From the NCBI RefSeq assembly GCF_900095385.1, contig NZ_FMID01000017.1, forward strand, positions 62,001 through 126,000: a stretch of DNA of 64,000 bases. Reading direction: 5' to 3'. Source of the stretch: Methanoculleus chikugoensis. GTDB taxonomy: Archaea; Halobacteriota; Methanomicrobia; Methanomicrobiales; Methanoculleaceae. Within the stretch, counting starts at the first letter, position 1; each line of letters begins with the position of its first letter. The translations under genes were made by a program, and so were the position numbers. This document shows, in pieces, positions 55,329 through 64,000 of this stretch. A model generated the notes under the pieces. That model ran no database searches. It was not told where the DNA came from and worked only from the letters and a program-made list of their open reading frames with translations.

Positions 55329-56207
55329 TCATACCCCGTCTCCGGCCGTGACGGACCAGACCATCATGCCGCTGCAACTCTCTGTTTCGGAACGATATTT
55401 GCCGTCCGGCGACGCATTTTTGTAGTACTCCCTGATCTTTTCCTCGACATCGCTGGAAACATAGCGGGTGCATTTCAGATCGTTGATCGTCTCTTCCGCT
55501 GCTTCGGCCCAGTTCCGCTCCTGGGTCCTTGAAAAACGGCTGAACTTCACAAGCGGCCGGTAACCGAGAACATAGAGGTACATAAACGGATACACCATAT
55601 CCGGTCCGGGAGTTTCGGGTTCCTCACCCAGGATCTTCCTGAAAATCTCCCGGCGAGCCCCGTCTGTGCCCACCCTCCCGACGAAGCGGCTGTAATAGCA
55701 GAACTGCCTTGAACACGCCATCATCCGGTCGAAGGTCTCGACGTCCCTGATTCCCGGCGTCATCGACGCGATCACGAGATCGAACTTCTCCCGGAACCCA
55801 AGTTTGTCGATATCGGCCGACCACCACGAGCATTCGACCGCGTTGATCCGTAACCTCTCGTTTTTCGCGGTTTCCCTGAGGTGGTCGAGCATCCTCGTCG
55901 AGATGTCGAGGGCCGTGACGTCCGCCCCGGCCCGGGCAAGGGGGAGGGAGAGGGTGCCCGGTCCGCACCCGATGTCGAGGACGCGTGCGCCCTCGAGCGA
56001 GATACCGGCCTCCTCCAGAATTGCAAAAACATCGGCAACTCGTTTCCGGTGCCTTTCCTCATCCATGTTCTGTACAAAGCGGTCAGCCCGCTCATCCCAT
56101 TGGGTCGCCTGCAGGTCGTCAGTGACTATCCTGCTGTTCTGTGCCGATGCATTCCAGCAGTCGATCCAGCATTTCACATTGTTATCCGGTGTCATTCGTG
56201 CGTTCAC
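55329..56207 (-). CDS. Class I SAM-dependent methyltransferase
   Basis: The 292-residue protein has the SAM-binding motif VLDIGCGPGTLSLPLA near residue 95, ADVTALDIS as motif Post I, and a methanogen-specific C-terminal part. GTG 56207 overlaps the DUF364 stop in a GTGA arrangement; ATG 56195 is the alternative. The acceptor is unknown. The order binding protein, O-methyltransferase, DUF364, methyltransferase in one operon points to modification of a small metal-binding molecule (inference). Confidence 0.85.
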   Translation of the reverse strand: MNARMTPDNNVKCWIDCWNASAQNSRIVTDDLQATQWDERADRFVQNMDEERHRKRVADVFAILEEAGISLEGARVLDIGCGPGTLSLPLARAGADVTALDISTRMLDHLRETAKNERLRINAVECSWWSADIDKLGFREKFDLVIASMTPGIRDVETFDRMMACSRQFCYYSRFVGRVGTDGARREIFRKILGEEPETPGPDMVYPFMYLYVLGYRPLVKFSRFSRTQERNWAEAAEETINDLKCTRYVSSDVEEKIREYYKNASPDGKYRSETESCSGMMVWSVTAGDGV

Positions 56208-57043
56208 GGTTCCTGGGACCGCCGGACGGCGATCCGGTCGGCCCCCTTCCCGAAGAAGTGGTAGCCGGAACCGCCCTCGGCAAGGATATCCAGCAGGCGA
56301 TCGGGATCGGTCACCTGGTTTCCACCGACGATCTCCACGCCGCGCGAGAAGAGAGCATCGGGGAGGATGCTCACCGAAGGGCCGAGCACGACCACCGTGG
56401 CTTCCGGCCGGGCGAGTTCGAGCAGGTGGTCGAGCGTCCCGTTGATCAGCGTGGTGCCGGTGATGACCAGGGTATCGGCCCAGGGAACGACCATATCCGT
56501 CTCCTCGACCGGCGTGTAGAACGGCAGTTCGTCGGGCTTGAGCGTACGGGGATCCATCTCGAGGACGCGAAACGGCTGGCCGGCCTGCTTGAGGGCACGC
56601 AGATACGGGGTCAGCGCCCCGACGACCACGACATTCCCGCTCTCCTGTATCGTGAGGAGATCGACCGCATCGACGCCGCGTACAACGGGGTGATCCGGCC
56701 CGGGGCATACATCGTCACAGAGCGCCGATAACGCGCTGACGACCGCGATCCCGAGCGCCTTGCGCATCGGCCGGTCTCCAAGGGCGTCGGCCAGGTAGGC
56801 CCCTATGTTCCGCTCCCGGAGCCTCCCCGAGTGCGGCATCGCCTTTGCCGAACTCGGGCAGCAGACGGCTTCCGGGATCGACTTTATGGGCGTGGCGCAG
56901 ATGCCCCCGTGGCCCGTACTGAGTTTGACTCCGGTGAAGAAGATTCCCACAACCGCCCGCTCGACCCTCACGTCATCCATCCTCTCCCCGAGGCGCTCCT
57001 TGAGGATCCGGACGGTCTCGTCGAGGACTGTGCTGTCGCCCAT
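56204..57043 (-). CDS. DUF4213/DUF364 protein (putative heavy-metal chelation family)
   Basis: The 279-residue protein shows an N-terminal DUF4213-like part (VGIFFTGVKLSTGHGG) and a C-terminal Rossmann-like DUF364 part (VVVVGALTPYL, DTLVITGTTLINGTLDHLLELA, VVLGPSVSILPDALFSRGVEIVGG). The family has been suggested to bind or handle metals, without biochemistry that I know. Cys residues in CCPSSAKAMPHSG could be ligands. Its ATG overlaps the O-methyltransferase stop by one base, and its stop overlaps the next methyltransferase. Confidence 0.85.
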   Translation of the reverse strand: MGDSTVLDETVRILKERLGERMDDVRVERAVVGIFFTGVKLSTGHGGICATPIKSIPEAVCCPSSAKAMPHSGRLRERNIGAYLADALGDRPMRKALGIAVVSALSALCDDVCPGPDHPVVRGVDAVDLLTIQESGNVVVVGALTPYLRALKQAGQPFRVLEMDPRTLKPDELPFYTPVEETDMVVPWADTLVITGTTLINGTLDHLLELARPEATVVVLGPSVSILPDALFSRGVEIVGGNQVTDPDRLLDILAEGGSGYHFFGKGADRIAVRRSQEP

Positions 57044-58149
57044 CAGTTCCCGCACCCGCCCGGCCCGCAACTGCACCCGGAAGACGAGGAGCCGTCCCGG
57101 CAATGCCCGGTCTCGCTGTCACCTTTCGTCGCACAGAAGAGGACGCCATAGCCCATTCCGGTCTCGTGGGGGGAGTTGGTGATGTCGATGTATCCCAGGC
57201 GCTTGAGCACGGCCTCAAGGCCTTCCGGGTGGCAGAGCGGATGCCCGGCGCTCATGAGTGCCCGGTCGAGTTCTGCAGTCCCGCTCCCGGAGGCTATGGT
57301 GCAGCCCGGTGAGCAGAAGAGATGGTTGAGGACGAGAAGACCACCGGGGGCGAGGGATTCCGTGATCTTGCCGAGGACGTCCGTCAGCCGGTCCCGGAAC
57401 TTATAGAGGAGGTGCGAGACGATGACGAGGTCGTAACCCCTGCCCGGATCGTCGGCGAGGATGTCTCCTCCCCGGGCGGAGACCCGTCCACCCATACCGT
57501 ATTTGCCGATGTACTCCCGGGTCAGCGGCACCACGTGCGGTAGATCGAAGACGGTTGCCTGGAGGTTCGGGTTCTCCTGGCAGAGGGCGACGGCGTAGAG
57601 GCCGTGGCCGCCGCCGACATCAAGCATGGACCGGGCGTTCCCGAACTCGGGGCGCTGGCCGATCTGGCTGACTACGTGCTGCAGTTCGCCCCGGGTGCAC
57701 CGCTGGGCGACCGCCCTGAGGTGGTCGTGCGTCGGCCGGGGACCGGTTTTCGGTGTCTCCATGCCGTTCCTGAGCGTTGCGGCCAGGTCGGACCACAACG
57801 AAGTTTCCCTGCAGGCGGCGAGAATCAGGTCGCCCTGGTAGGTGGGGCTGGTGCTGACCAGGAGTTCTTCGGCGATTGGGGTGTTTGCACACACGTTCTC
57901 TTCGAACGTGATATATCCCATATCGGCGAGCGCCGCGAGAAAACCCCGGGTAAACATCCCGTTTATGCCGATTGCAGTGACGTCGTTTCGTGCGGTCGGG
58001 CCACGCTCCGAGAGCCAGTCAAAGAACCGGAGTTCGAGCGCTGCCGAGAGGACCTGGTACGATTGGTACCCGGACAGGGCTGCATCCAGGCGTGCAACAC
58101 CCTCTACCGCCGGCATGACCTGCCGGAGCTGGATTGTCTGTTTTGTCAT
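57043..58149 (-). CDS. O-methyltransferase-like enzyme with Cys-rich tail
   Basis: The 368-residue protein has an N-terminal winged-helix dimerisation domain (about 20-110, ALELRFFDWLSERG) and a C-terminal SAM domain (MLDVGGGHGLYAVAL, VFDLPHVV), the layout of plant- and polyketide-type O-methyltransferases. It ends in a Cys/His/Gly tail with GHCRDGSSSSGCSCGPGGCGN-like spacing that could bind a metal. The catalytic His of classic members is not clear. ATG 58149 is taken; TTG 58170 would overlap the binding-protein stop. Confidence 0.82.
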   Translation of the reverse strand: MTKQTIQLRQVMPAVEGVARLDAALSGYQSYQVLSAALELRFFDWLSERGPTARNDVTAIGINGMFTRGFLAALADMGYITFEENVCANTPIAEELLVSTSPTYQGDLILAACRETSLWSDLAATLRNGMETPKTGPRPTHDHLRAVAQRCTRGELQHVVSQIGQRPEFGNARSMLDVGGGHGLYAVALCQENPNLQATVFDLPHVVPLTREYIGKYGMGGRVSARGGDILADDPGRGYDLVIVSHLLYKFRDRLTDVLGKITESLAPGGLLVLNHLFCSPGCTIASGSGTAELDRALMSAGHPLCHPEGLEAVLKRLGYIDITNSPHETGMGYGVLFCATKGDSETGHCRDGSSSSGCSCGPGGCGN

Positions 58150-58166
58150 GGTGTAATCACATCCGT

Positions 58167-59252
58167 TCAAATTGGTGTCGGGTGGAGGATGCTCTCTACC
58201 TCTTGGTCCGTGAGGTCGTAGTCGTAGAACTCACGGAAAAACTTCTTTGTCTCGTCGGCGAGGTCGACGTCGGCGAACCGGTCGGGGTAGAGTTTCTGTG
58301 CAAGCCAGAGGATCCCGAGCGGGCTCTCCGGTGCGGGGCGATCCCACCAGAAGGTTCCTATGGGACACGGATACACCGCCCCATCCCGGACCGCTGTGAT
58401 GGTCGCAAACTGGGGGTTGGCTACAAACGCACCGGCCGGGCTCGAGTAGTCCTTCATGTTCGACGCAACGTAGATAACCTCGGGGTCCCACCGGACGAGC
58501 TCTTCGGCAGAGATCTCATAGCCCCCACGGATAACCTTCTGGTCGATCCCTCCGGCGACGTTGATCCCTCCTGCCGCGCGAATCATGTCGTTGCCCCACG
58601 CACCGTGTCCTTCTGTCTTGAGGGGCGTGCTCATCATATAATAGACCCGTTTCCGCTCGCCCTCGGGGATATCGGCGAGTTTCGACTCTATCCGCGCGAG
58701 CGTTTCATCCCAGTACGCAACCAGCCGTTCGGCACGCTCTTCGCGCCCGAAGACCAGACCCAGCATGCGGAACTCCTGTTTCAGTTCCTCGACTCCGGCA
58801 CGCCCCGTGAGTACCCGCACGACCGGAACCCCGGCCGCTTCAATGCGGGCGTTTCCAGTCTCTGCATAATAACTCCCGATAACGATGTCGGGGTTGAGTT
58901 TCAGGATCTCCTCCACGTTGGCGTTGTCGAAGGAACCGACGTCGGGTGTGGTGCAGTATCCCGGGACGACGGTGTACAGGCGCTCCGTAGTGCATTGTTG
59001 CGGCTGGGCGACGACCCGGTCGCCGACCCCCAGGGCGGCCAGTTCCTGCGCCGCTCCGCCGCAGCAGGTGATGGCCACGGTCCTGACCTCGGACGGGATG
59101 ACCACTGTCCTGCCGTCCATATCAGTAATGTTCCGGACGGTTACAGCAGATTCTTCACCGGCTGTCCCGGGCGCTGCAAGGATGAAAGCAAGAGCCAGGA
59201 CGGCGCAGACGGCCACAATGGCAGGAACCAGATGACGAGCATCTTTCTTCAT
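58167..59252 (-). CDS. FepB/BtuF-like ABC substrate-binding protein
   Basis: The 361-residue protein has a signal peptide or anchor at about 8-31 and the PF01497 fold, with ITDMDGRTVVIPSEVRTVAI, LKLNPDIVIGSYYAE, FWWDRPAPESPLGILWLAQ and LYPDRF. It has Cys pairs unusual for the family (ITCCGGAA, PQQC, GYC). It heads the operon with the two methyltransferases and DUF364, so the imported ligand is probably the substrate or product of those enzymes. Confidence 0.88.
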   Translation of the reverse strand: MKKDARHLVPAIVAVCAVLALAFILAAPGTAGEESAVTVRNITDMDGRTVVIPSEVRTVAITCCGGAAQELAALGVGDRVVAQPQQCTTERLYTVVPGYCTTPDVGSFDNANVEEILKLNPDIVIGSYYAETGNARIEAAGVPVVRVLTGRAGVEELKQEFRMLGLVFGREERAERLVAYWDETLARIESKLADIPEGERKRVYYMMSTPLKTEGHGAWGNDMIRAAGGINVAGGIDQKVIRGGYEISAEELVRWDPEVIYVASNMKDYSSPAGAFVANPQFATITAVRDGAVYPCPIGTFWWDRPAPESPLGILWLAQKLYPDRFADVDLADETKKFFREFYDYDLTDQEVESILHPTPI

Positions 59253-59622: not shown

Positions 59623-60810
59623 ATGACCCATAGGAAAGAACCGATTATGGAGATCGGACAGGAACCCGGGAAGAATGTTGCGATCGGTTTTTGGCGATCT
59701 CTTTTTCGGGACGGCATACCGGCCCATGAAGCCGTTCTCCAGCTGATCCCGGCACGGAAGGCCATCTACCTCCTCCCGGTCGCCCTCTTCTTCTTCTCCC
59801 TCTTCTTCGGGAGATACATGATGGACCCGGTGGAGACCTGCCGGATCCTCATCATCGGGTCGGCGAACGCATGCTTCGACGGTGCGTCGTCCCTGCTCTC
59901 GACCGTCTCCGGTCACCCGGTCCTCCTCCCCTCCTTCGAGCAGACCTGGGGAGCATCGGAAGAGACGGTCGTCTTCCGGATCAGGCTCCCGCGGTTGATA
60001 GCGGCGATGCTCGTCGGGGGAGGGCTCGCCATCGCCGGCGCCTCGTTTCAGGGACTCTTCAGGAACCCCCTCGTCTCGCCCGACATCCTCGGCGTCTCCG
60101 CCGGCGCAGGGTTCGGGGCGGCGCTCGGGATCCTCCTCTCCGGCAACCCCTGGGTCATCCAGGTCTCCGCCTTCGTCTTCGGGATCCTCGCGGTCGCCGT
60201 CACCTACGGCATCGGTCGGGCCGTCGGCAAGGGCTCGACCCTCGTCCTCGTCCTCGGGGGGATCATCGTTGGATCACTCTTCTCCGCCTTCATATCCCTC
60301 ACCAAGTACATCGCCGACCCGTACGACACCCTGCCCGCGATAGTCTTCTGGCTGATGGGAAGCCTCTCCGCGGTCTCGAACGCCGACATCGTCGCGGTCG
60401 CCCCGCCGATCCTTCTCGGCGCTCTCTGCCTCTACCTCGTCAGGTGGCGGATCAACCTCCTCGCGGTCGGCGAAGAGGAGGCGCGGGCGCTCGGGGTGGA
60501 CACAAAGAGGATGACCGTGGTGCTCATCATCGCCTCGACGGTCATCACCGCCTCCGCGGTCTGTATCAGCGGGATCATCGGCTGGGTCGGTCTCGTCGTC
60601 CCCCACATAGGAAGGATGCTCGTCGGCCCCGATTTCCGCAAGCTCATCCCCGTATCAGCCATTCTCGGGGCCTCGTTCCTTCTCGTCGTCGACGACATCG
60701 CAAGAACCCTGACCGCAGCCGAGATCCCGCTCGGCATCCTGACGTCGCTCGTCGGTGCGCCATTCTTTGCATACCTCCTGACACGCAAAAAGGTAGGCTG
60801 GATATCATGA
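59623..60810 (+). CDS. FecCD/BtuC-type ABC transporter permease
   Basis: The 395-residue protein has a roughly 45-residue hydrophilic start and then ten predicted helices. Family phrases are RLPRLIAAMLVGGGLAIAGA, FRNPLVSPDILGVSAGAGFGA, ARALGVDTKRM and SGIIGWVGLVVPHIGRMLVG. It forms the membrane channel for a metal chelate or corrinoid. ATG 59647 with AGGAAAG upstream is an alternative start. The stop overlaps the ATPase start in ATGA. Confidence 0.92.
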   Translation: MTHRKEPIMEIGQEPGKNVAIGFWRSLFRDGIPAHEAVLQLIPARKAIYLLPVALFFFSLFFGRYMMDPVETCRILIIGSANACFDGASSLLSTVSGHPVLLPSFEQTWGASEETVVFRIRLPRLIAAMLVGGGLAIAGASFQGLFRNPLVSPDILGVSAGAGFGAALGILLSGNPWVIQVSAFVFGILAVAVTYGIGRAVGKGSTLVLVLGGIIVGSLFSAFISLTKYIADPYDTLPAIVFWLMGSLSAVSNADIVAVAPPILLGALCLYLVRWRINLLAVGEEEARALGVDTKRMTVVLIIASTVITASAVCISGIIGWVGLVVPHIGRMLVGPDFRKLIPVSAILGASFLLVVDDIARTLTAAEIPLGILTSLVGAPFFAYLLTRKKVGWIS

Positions 60811-61610
60811 TCTTAGACGTCAACAACGCCTCGTTCTCGTACGACGGCATCACAAAACAGTTCGAAGAGATCTCCCTCTCCCTCCGGAGAGGAGAGGTCC
60901 TCTCCCTCCTCGGGAGGAACGGGACCGGAAAATCGACCCTGATCAAGTGCATCTTAAACATCCTCACGCTCCAGAAGGGGGAGGTGGAGATCAACGGCCG
61001 CCGGGTCGGCGATATGCGGCCCGAGGAGGTCGCGCGGCAGGTCGGTTACGTCCCCCAGGCCCACCAGGCTGTCTTCCCGTTCTCGGCGCTCGATTTCGTC
61101 CTCATGGGGAGAGCCCCCCATATATCAGCCTTCTCGGTCCCGGGCGAGGAGGACTACGAGAAGGCGGAGGAGGCGTTTGAGCGGATCGGGATCACCCATC
61201 TCCGGGAGAAGTCCATCTCCGAGATGTCGGGGGGAGAGTCGCAGATGGTGATGATCGCCCGCGCCCTCGCCCAGGAACCGTCGCTGCTCATCCTCGACGA
61301 ACCGACGTCGCATCTCGATGTCGGCAACCAGATGAAGACGATAGCGACTATCGACCAGCTCGCCGCCGACGGGATCGCCATCCTGATGTGCACCCACTTC
61401 CCCGACCACGCGTTCCTGATCTCGCATTCGGCCGCCATCCTCAATAAAGGCAGGCTGATCGCGCAGGGCCGGGCCGAGGACGTCATCACGAAGGAGAACC
61501 TCCGTGAGGCTTACGGGGTCGATATCTGCGTCCACTACATTGAGGAGGCTGGGCGGACGGTCTGCATCCCGATGAATCCCTGCGGGTGCCGGGGCAGAGG
61601 GGAGGTATAA
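60807..61610 (+). CDS. FecE/BtuD-type ABC transporter ATPase with Cys-rich tail
   Basis: The 267-residue protein has Walker A GRNGTGKST, signature MSGGESQMVMIARA and Walker B LLILDEPTSHLD. The C-terminus is extended and ends IPMNPCGCRGRGEV, giving a Cys cluster not normal for the family, with another Cys at GRTVCIP. It drives the permease encoded just upstream. The radical SAM gene follows after 45 bp. Confidence 0.93.
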   Translation: MILDVNNASFSYDGITKQFEEISLSLRRGEVLSLLGRNGTGKSTLIKCILNILTLQKGEVEINGRRVGDMRPEEVARQVGYVPQAHQAVFPFSALDFVLMGRAPHISAFSVPGEEDYEKAEEAFERIGITHLREKSISEMSGGESQMVMIARALAQEPSLLILDEPTSHLDVGNQMKTIATIDQLAADGIAILMCTHFPDHAFLISHSAAILNKGRLIAQGRAEDVITKENLREAYGVDICVHYIEEAGRTVCIPMNPCGCRGRGEV

Positions 61611-61655: not shown

Positions 61656-63383
61656 ATGCTGACGCATGAGTGCCGCTGTTGCGCCCACCGCTGCCGGATC
61701 CCTGAGGGGGAGTGCGGCAGATGCGGCATGTACCGGGGTGCCGGAGGAGCGGCCGTCGAGGTCTTCCCCGACTCCTACCTGGCACGCTACCCGACCGCCA
61801 TAGAGACGGTCCCTTTCCTTCATTTCTGGCCGGGACATACCTTCTATGCCGTCTCCTCGGTCGGTTGCAACCTCTCCTGCCCCGGGTGCGTCTCAGCAAT
61901 CCTGACCGCCGATCCCGGTACCCTCACCGGGGCGCTCGTGCGCCTGCCGCCTGATAACGTGGTCAGTGAAGCGGAGGCGGCAGGCTGCCGGGGAATCCTC
62001 TTCTGCATCAACGAGCCCGCGGTATCCCTGCCGACCGTCCTGCGCCTTGCTGATGCCGCGCACGATGCCGGGCTGCTCTTCGGGTGCTCGACGAACGGCT
62101 ACCTGGGGGACGAGGCTACGTGTGCCCTTGCACCGCTCCTCGACTGTGTCAATGTGGGGCTGAAAGGGGCGTCTGATGCGTGTTACCGGGAGTGCGGCGG
62201 GGCCTCGGCCGGGCCGGCCTTCAGGACGGTGCGGGCGCTCTATGAGGCGGGTGTCCACGTCGAGGTCTCGGTGGTCTACGTGCGGGGCCGCGAGGATGAG
62301 GTCGTCTCTGCCGCAGAGAGGGTTGCCGCTACGGACGCCGGCATCCCCTTCCAGATCATGCGCTTTATGCCGTTCTCTGGAGGAGGAGAGGAGAGAGTGC
62401 CTGCGGCACGCGAGGCCGAAGACCTTGCAGAGACGGTCTCCTCGATCCTCGAGAACGTCTACCTCTTCAACACCCCGGGGACGAGCCGGCTCTCCACCAG
62501 ATGCCCGGCCTGCGGGCGCATCCTCATCAGGCGGGCCTTCAACGGGCCGATGGGGGCAAGGAACGAATGGGTGCACCCGGGAGAGCGGTGCGCGTGCGGC
62601 GCGAGGGTGCCGGTATCAGGCCGGATGACCGCAGAGTGGCGACCTGAGGCGAGGTACGCCGGCGGCTACCGGCCCACGCGCGGGCTTGAGCTCATCCGGG
62701 GTATGCTCGCGGCGGCGGGCGTCACCGACCGGGCGGCGCAGGGCAGGGTTCTTGCCGCCGAGCTCGCAAGCGGGGGACTTTCGACGCTCCACGAGAGGAT
62801 AGCAACGCCTCGGGGGTTCTGCTCGGCCCTCCGATCGTATGCGGCCGCCGGCGGGAGGCGGGACGAGGGGGAGCGGCTCGCCTCGGATCTCCTTTCAATC
62901 GTGTCAGGGATCAGGGATAAGACCGTCGGTATGGGGCGGCCACGGATCTATGTGGCCCTCGGCCATCCCCTGGTCCCGCTCTATGCCGACAAACCGGAGA
63001 TATCGCTCATCAGTTCCGCCGGCGGCTACCCGGTGAACCGTAACCTGGGACGGGGCGACCGGGACGCACGACCGGTCACGGCCCAAGAGATCGAGGCGCT
63101 CCGGCCGGAGGTCGTATTCTACCAGGAGGTCGCCCCGGTCGATACGGAGACCTTTGTCCGGGCCTGCCTTGATGCGGGAGTGCTTACAGAGGCGGTGAGG
63201 CGGGGTGCTGTATACCGGCTCCCGGCCGGCACAAAAACAGGGTGCCTCGGGTGGGCGGCATCGATCGCCGCCGTGGCAGGCATCCTCCACCCGGACGCCG
63301 GGTGCCCGGCCCCGGGGGAGGTCGAGGAAGCGGTGCTCTCGTGCGTCCGTGCGGTGGGCGGGGAGATCCCCTACGGGCGGTAG
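61656..63383 (+). CDS. Radical SAM enzyme fused to a binding-protein-like lobe
   Basis: The 575-residue protein has a Cys-rich start (Cys6, 8, 9, 13, 20, 23) like PflA/AmmeMemoRadiSam-type enzymes, then the cluster motif Cys71-x3-Cys75-x2-Cys78 (CNLSCPGC). A zinc-ribbon-like set follows (Cys283, 286, 312, 314). Residues about 428-565 (PRIYVALGHPLVPLYADKP, SSAGGYPVNRNLG, GAVYRLPAGTKTGCLGWAAS, ILHPD) match the C-terminal lobe of the binding protein encoded next door (PRVYYSMGTPLFALNADRF, AAGGDPVNRGI, GRVYTMPPGWDFGNPRW, LHPE). No signal peptide is present, so this lobe is in the cytoplasm. It probably binds the imported ligand for radical chemistry (inference). Confidence 0.85.
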   Translation: MLTHECRCCAHRCRIPEGECGRCGMYRGAGGAAVEVFPDSYLARYPTAIETVPFLHFWPGHTFYAVSSVGCNLSCPGCVSAILTADPGTLTGALVRLPPDNVVSEAEAAGCRGILFCINEPAVSLPTVLRLADAAHDAGLLFGCSTNGYLGDEATCALAPLLDCVNVGLKGASDACYRECGGASAGPAFRTVRALYEAGVHVEVSVVYVRGREDEVVSAAERVAATDAGIPFQIMRFMPFSGGGEERVPAAREAEDLAETVSSILENVYLFNTPGTSRLSTRCPACGRILIRRAFNGPMGARNEWVHPGERCACGARVPVSGRMTAEWRPEARYAGGYRPTRGLELIRGMLAAAGVTDRAAQGRVLAAELASGGLSTLHERIATPRGFCSALRSYAAAGGRRDEGERLASDLLSIVSGIRDKTVGMGRPRIYVALGHPLVPLYADKPEISLISSAGGYPVNRNLGRGDRDARPVTAQEIEALRPEVVFYQEVAPVDTETFVRACLDAGVLTEAVRRGAVYRLPAGTKTGCLGWAASIAAVAGILHPDAGCPAPGEVEEAVLSCVRAVGGEIPYGR

Positions 63384-64000
63384 AACGACCTGTTTCCTGA
63401 TACCGCGGCCGCGCTGGTCCCGTAAAACGTCCGGTAGAACCGGTCCTGCTCCGCGGCAAGGTCGAAGGCGGCGCGCTCCGGGTGGAGGGTGCCTGCGATA
63501 GCACAGAGGCCGAGCACCCAGCGGGGGTTGCCGAAGTCCCAGCCCGGCGGCATGGTGTAGACCCGGCCGTGCTCGACCGCGTCGGCCAAGAGCCCCATCT
63601 TCCGGCATGCCGCAATGTAATCGGAGGCAGGCGCCGAGAGGAACCCGGATACGAAGATGTACTCGGGGTTGAACGCAGCAAACTCCTCCGGCGTTATGTT
63701 GACCCCCGGTTTACCGGCCCGGGCGATCCCCCGGTTGACGGGATCGCCGCCGGCCGCCTCCACGAGATCCATCTCGAACCGGTCGGCGTTCAGGGCGAAG
63801 AGCGGCGTCCCCATCGAGTAGTAGACCCGGGGCCGGCGGCAGCCCTCGACCGCCGACGAGACCGCCGCCACCCGGTCGCCGATGTAGCCGGCCAGCCTCT
63901 CCGCCGCCCCGGGCCGGCCGGCCCGTTCACCGAGTTCCCGGACGAGGTCGAGGTAGCCGTCTATTGACTGGATCTTCCCGTGGAGGTCCCGGATGTAGTC
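63371..64000 (-). CDS. FepB/BtuF-like substrate-binding protein (5' end outside window)
   Basis: The frame is open to the window edge, giving 209 visible residues from the middle helix (DLVRELGERAGRPGAAERL) through the C-terminal lobe. The start and signal peptide are missing. The visible lobe is homologous to the C-terminal part of the convergent radical SAM protein. The two genes overlap by 13 bp at their 3' ends. It is the third binding protein of this region. Confidence 0.85.
   Translation of the reverse strand, partial: DYIRDLHGKIQSIDGYLDLVRELGERAGRPGAAERLAGYIGDRVAAVSSAVEGCRRPRVYYSMGTPLFALNADRFEMDLVEAAGGDPVNRGIARAGKPGVNITPEEFAAFNPEYIFVSGFLSAPASDYIAACRKMGLLADAVEHGRVYTMPPGWDFGNPRWVLGLCAIAGTLHPERAAFDLAAEQDRFYRTFYGTSAAAVSGNRSFYRP

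Follow-up and report, generated by a model that had tools for sequence, protein, structure and literature searches.

Each domain of the protein described here is already known. It shares with the AmmeMemoRadiSam radical SAM enzyme (TIGR04337) the four-cysteine N-terminus, the radical SAM core and, C-terminal to this, a zinc-ribbon-like cysteine set, and the fold of the core is like that of the PFL-activating enzyme, NifB and QueE (Z 20.6, 17.7 and 17.3, respectively), from which the protein differs by an extra N-terminal four-cysteine region, a zinc-ribbon-like segment and a lobe of a substrate-binding protein (SBP). A spine helix and C-lobe are shared with class III (cluster A) SBPs of the PF01497 family, among them 4hn9, CeuE (4inp), BtuF and IsdE; unlike these, however, the protein has neither an N-lobe sheet nor an export signal, carries the lobe behind an enzyme and has invariant residues of its own. 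To our knowledge, cytoplasmic enzymes seldom contain parts borrowed from transport binding proteins, and we know of no described enzyme with a radical SAM core and an SBP lobe. For a radical SAM enzyme tied to the uptake of a metal compound and working without oxygen, a precedent exists in HutW/ChuW, radical SAM enzymes that open heme anaerobically and release iron (PMC10035031).

The fusion gene (61656..63383, + strand) lies near the end of a 64,000-nucleotide stretch of a Methanoculleus chikugoensis contig, the whole of which we call the window, and reads without interruption through 575 codons plus stop. An AlphaFold model of the whole protein, built with a natural alignment, reached a pLDDT of 88.8 and a pTM of 0.88. 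At its start, a C6-C9-C13-C23 motif (61671..61724, +) common to AmmeMemo-type radical SAM proteins was invariant in the alignment across 31 fusions, 4 lobeless sisters and 9 AmmeMemo proteins. The radical SAM core follows (residues 36-270; 61761..62465, +), recognised by a PF04055 match above threshold (49.7 bits, E 6e-13; cut-off 29.5 bits) and by a fold match to the PFL-activating enzyme structure 3cb8 (Z 20.6, rmsd 2.6, 222 residues aligned), that is, the partial TIM-barrel of radical SAM proteins. Its CxxxCxxC cluster motif, CNLSCPGC (C71, C75, C78; 61866..61889, +), was invariant in 44/44 aligned sequences. Further on, the alignment shows a zinc-ribbon-like set, C283, C286, C312 and C314 (62502..62597, +), all invariant apart from C312, which is kept in 29/31 fusions. 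The best NCBIfam match was to TIGR04337 over residues 5-297, at 86.9 bits below the cut-off of 220, and HutW/ChuW was not among the 10 NCBIfam matches, in a library that may not hold a HutW/ChuW model. The core is PFL-activase-like and its parent protein PFL-activase/AmmeMemo-like. AmmeMemo-type proteins nevertheless differ from the fusions in forming a separate clade and having no SBP lobe. AMMECR1 is encoded on another contig (C26) than the fusion, and does not stand beside the genome's own AmmeMemo-type gene (C54) either. Reading the N-terminal sequence revealed no export signal, the four-cysteine motif of the enzyme standing there instead, and since the N-terminus is that of an enzyme lacking such a signal, the product is predicted to be a cytoplasmic, oxygen-sensitive radical SAM enzyme.

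Behind the cysteine set, an all-helical segment (residues 339-384; 62670..62807, +; DSSP of both models) occupies the position of the missing SBP N-lobe, and DSSP of the model showed no beta strands in residues 339-401, so that the N-lobe sheet is absent. The remainder (residues 385-575; 62808..63380, +) corresponds to a class III (cluster A) SBP from spine helix through C-lobe, followed by a C-terminal tail, with the long spine helix at residues 402-423 and an alpha/beta lobe from there to the C-terminus. A class III SBP has two Rossmann-like lobes; the fusion has the C-lobe and spine only.

The sequence-only reading recognised this lobe through its alignment with the product of the neighbouring gene, which it took for an ABC binding protein. 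The alignment is real, running in the same order over the last ~170 residues (34% identity over 173 aa, 108 bits), but the neighbour is not a binding protein. The 209 codons present in the window (63371..64000, -) are the C-terminal end of a second, paralogous fusion that extends beyond the window and continues into a radical SAM half of its own. Read from the 128,715-base contig, since the window's end at 64000 cuts it, the whole gene (G000:C14:125374-127107) encodes 578 aa with 43% identity to the window fusion over nearly the full length, and its product scores 34.6 bits against PF01497, above the cut-off of 27.5. In a close relative, this paralogue is broken into two overlapping frames (G002:C1:19689-21426), and the adjoining fusion of the window type is intact.

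Because that strong alignment compares two paralogous fusions, homology to SBPs must rest on other evidence. Taken alone, the window fusion falls below the curated PF01497 cut-off (E 0.12), and the genuine SBPs encoded in the window match its lobe weakly (27 bits, E 3e-4; 24 bits, E 0.003). A profile of 29 fusions, searched against solved SBPs, matched 4hn9 (E 2e-16), 4pag (E 8e-14) and IsdE (E 2e-12) over positions 387-565, and PF01497 itself was matched by 24/29 family members, at best with E 2e-9. Comparing the lobe profile with a profile of 18 SBPs (hhalign) gave a probability of 99.8% and E 3e-28, from residue 385 to the C-terminus. The fold points the same way: residues 343-575 of the model superimpose on 4hn9 with Z 17.4 (212 residues aligned, rmsd 2.9), CeuE (4inp) is also matched, and when the C-terminal part was modelled by itself the pLDDT was 92.0 and the fold matches were unchanged. 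Altogether, these results are strong evidence that the lobe is homologous to the spine and C-lobe of a PF01497 class III SBP, and the cytoplasmic radical SAM-SBP lobe order that had been read from the letters is upheld by profile, fold and N-terminus alike.

In the window, the fusion gene begins 45 bp past the end of a FepC/BtuD-type ABC ATPase gene (60807..61610, +; PF00005, E 3e-34), which itself overlaps the stop of an upstream FecCD-type permease gene (59623..60810, +; PF01032, E 1.8e-86). Divergent from the permease lies a genuine full-length SBP with both lobes (58167..59252, -; PF01497, E 7e-36). Between two SBP genes, at 55332-58170 (-), the window also encodes a DUF4213/DUF364 putative metal-chelation protein and two methyltransferases, one of them BchU/CrtF-like.

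How general these surroundings are was counted in 20 fusion loci, each flanked by more than 5 kb in both directions, with 15 AmmeMemo loci as controls. A methyltransferase was present in 19/20 fusion loci, FecCD in 15/20, an SBP in 15/20, and all four partner types together in 13/20, whereas methyltransferase, FecCD or SBP partners were found in 0/15 control loci. The fusion loci are related, and we claim no exact probability for the linkage; as a guide, with eight strong FecCD matches in this genome's 2.65 Mb, about 5% of 17-kb stretches taken at random would contain one. The link to a transporter that had been proposed from the window is a tight tie to a Fec-type importer. In further bacterial loci, the methyltransferase directly adjoins the fusion gene in 8/9. 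The usual gene order is SBP-FecCD-ATPase-methyltransferase-fusion (L050, L054, L055, L060, L064, L066), and in Methanoculleus it is often SBP-methyltransferase-fusion converging on ATPase-FecCD; in M. chikugoensis the window fusion is the second one, behind the ATPase. Two fusions stand side by side in this contig, L045 and L063. Four loci have the methyltransferase with no importer nearby (L048, L067, L068, L073), and one (L058) has neither. The conserved module consists of a class I methyltransferase and the radical SAM-lobe protein, usually with a FecCD permease, an ATPase and an SBP. An NCBIfam scan of the methyltransferase and SBP gave just generic sub-threshold matches, no riboswitch was found at gathering thresholds in seven loci, and no recurring exporter or scaffold-building enzyme was seen in the clusters. 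The position of the gene next to a methyltransferase, and usually by importer genes, suggests that the enzyme processes something imported.

Lobeless sister radical SAM proteins (L076-L079, L059:4477, L061:2126), whose placement as a sister clade in the radical SAM tree is shown for L076-L079, have the same importer partners as the fusions and end near residue 335. In 4/4 loci they stood in clusters with SBP, FecCD and ATPase, from which it follows that the link to import predates the lobe or is independent of it. Often the next gene encodes a ~390-aa protein, which lies directly behind the lobeless gene in importer clusters of both archaea and Desulfobacteraceae (L078:8845-10011, L061:3145-4323 and L059:5415-6686, all +); Pfam gave no match for the L078 and L059 copies, nor did NCBIfam for the L059 copy or the PDB for the L078 copy. 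Some lobeless clusters contain two tandem SBPs in one protein of 736-774 aa (L076:8965-11172, -; L077:12280-14601, +; L079:9137-11428, -). In Desulfobacteraceae, lobeless and lobe-bearing genes also share a cluster, with a methyltransferase between them (L059:4477-9731, L061:2126-9743), and in L061 an SBP, a permease and an ATPase lie between them as well.

The lobe is about as conserved as the enzyme that carries it, with a mean conservation score of 0.596 vs 0.602 for the radical SAM core. Within it, conservation is higher in the cleft-side loops than elsewhere (0.639 vs 0.577, a value reached by 1/119 circular shifts), a suggestive test, as the loops were defined by model strand ends after the alignment had been seen. 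P429, N461, C504 and H545 are invariant in the fusions and W533 is kept in 27/29, none of which is typical of SBPs; C504 (63165..63167, +), the most conserved residue of the lobe, is a cysteine in 29/29 fusions and falls in a gap in the 18 SBPs. From these residues, the binding face is predicted to have been rebuilt for the enzyme, which argues against the lobe having simply inherited the specificity of the partner SBP, although the ligand could still be the same. No lobe is closest to the SBP of its own operon, and the covariation of lobe and SBP beyond that of the radical SAM part is weak and not significant (partial r 0.21, p 0.06). That the enzyme recognises the same ligand as the transporter, as had been proposed, is plausible, but the lobes form a clade apart and have invariants of their own.

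We tentatively favour import-linked chemistry, giving it somewhat less than an even chance: a compound brought in by the importer would be offered by the fused lobe to the radical SAM site, and would also be a substrate of the methyltransferase. It would be a metal chelate or a tetrapyrrole-like molecule, the kind of cargo that Fec/BtuF-type importers carry; the lobe would keep it, or something derived from it, in place against the radical SAM domain, and this domain would substitute for the missing N-lobe; the 5'-deoxyadenosyl radical would then modify the bound compound, and the methyltransferase may act on the same molecule, for metal release or conversion for use. We favour this reading because of the linkage to methyltransferase, FecCD and SBP, a lobe as conserved as the core, its conserved cleft-side loops and the HutW/ChuW precedent. 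Against it speak the lack of a riboswitch, lobe invariants unlike those of SBPs, lobes that are not closest to the partner SBP, the importer-less loci and the loss, in the window member, of the WDFGSPRW cleft motif found in most fusions.

Some of the same observations would fit a lobe that is not a ligand binder but a protein-docking or dimerisation module, pairing the enzyme with the methyltransferase, a second fusion or the transporter. Half an SBP, its N-lobe sheet missing, cannot clamp a ligand, the fusion-specific N461, C504, H545 and (nearly) W533 are unlike SBPs, the linkage to the methyltransferase is tighter than to the importer, and fusions occur in pairs in three places. Yet the conserved positions concentrate in the cleft-side loops, and the lobeless sisters have the same partners, so that the lobe is unnecessary for association; we consider docking unlikely, if a serious competitor. 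A bolder form of ligand binding, which we judge improbable, is a hybrid clamshell in which the radical SAM barrel replaces the SBP N-lobe and an imported metal complex would be gripped between the SBP C-lobe and the SAM/[4Fe-4S] site and opened there, with the invariant Cys504 helping to take the metal; if true, a binding protein would have been turned into an enzyme. It is just as doubtful that the radical SAM-lobe protein and the methyltransferase together produce a chelator or cofactor, which the linked importer would re-import once it is loaded with metal. Methyltransferase and radical SAM protein are indeed the most constant pair, with the importer in most but not all loci; however, such biosynthesis sits poorly with clusters that have no recurring exporter or scaffold-building enzyme, and an SBP-derived lobe would more naturally bind a finished ligand. 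Finally, that the fusion is a frame error, a misassembly or a chance similarity has next to no probability and is rejected, for although the window protein alone is below the PF01497 threshold, near-full-length relatives of the same architecture, most without internal stops, occur in dozens of independent genomes, archaeal and bacterial, and the family profile and fold matches stand at E 2e-16 and Z 17.4.

Where named, these relatives come from Methanoculleus, Methanogenium, Methanospirillum, Methanoregula, Methanolinea and Methanocalculus among the archaea and from Desulfobacula, Desulfobacter vibrioformis, another Desulfobacteraceae bacterium and Solidesulfovibrio aerotolerans among the bacteria. 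In the class of the window's organism, 67/232 genomes (15/40 genera) match the fusion at E 1e-80; by our count about 60 of these genomes have a match that reaches the lobe, the remainder being lobeless sisters or fragments. In Desulfobacterota, 8/395 genomes match, and viral contigs and plasmids gave no matches. In the lobe tree, the fused lobes make up a single clade that excludes all sampled SBPs (support 100/100), and the radical SAM parts of the fusions make up another (97/97), with the lobeless group as sister and AmmeMemo-type proteins outside. Because each half is a single clade, we conclude that the fusion arose once, a single event accounting for the data. The window member groups with L063:4518 in either tree, and in the lobe tree it is joined by the L044 and L045 fusions, which share its lack of the WDFGSPRW motif. 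The sequence-only reading's statement that no described enzyme is known to have this architecture agrees with our literature searches on the architecture or cluster, which found no description, and the combination is absent from the libraries searched; the protein is not unique, however, but belongs to a family spread over Methanomicrobiales and Desulfobacterota.

The fusion gives radical SAM enzymes a new domain architecture. Methanogens and sulfate reducers have retained the product of one ancient fusion alongside a methyltransferase and a Fec importer, which points to an anaerobic pathway, so far undescribed, that uses a metal-bearing compound, and the lobe, C504 and the partner methyltransferase offer direct handles for identifying that compound.
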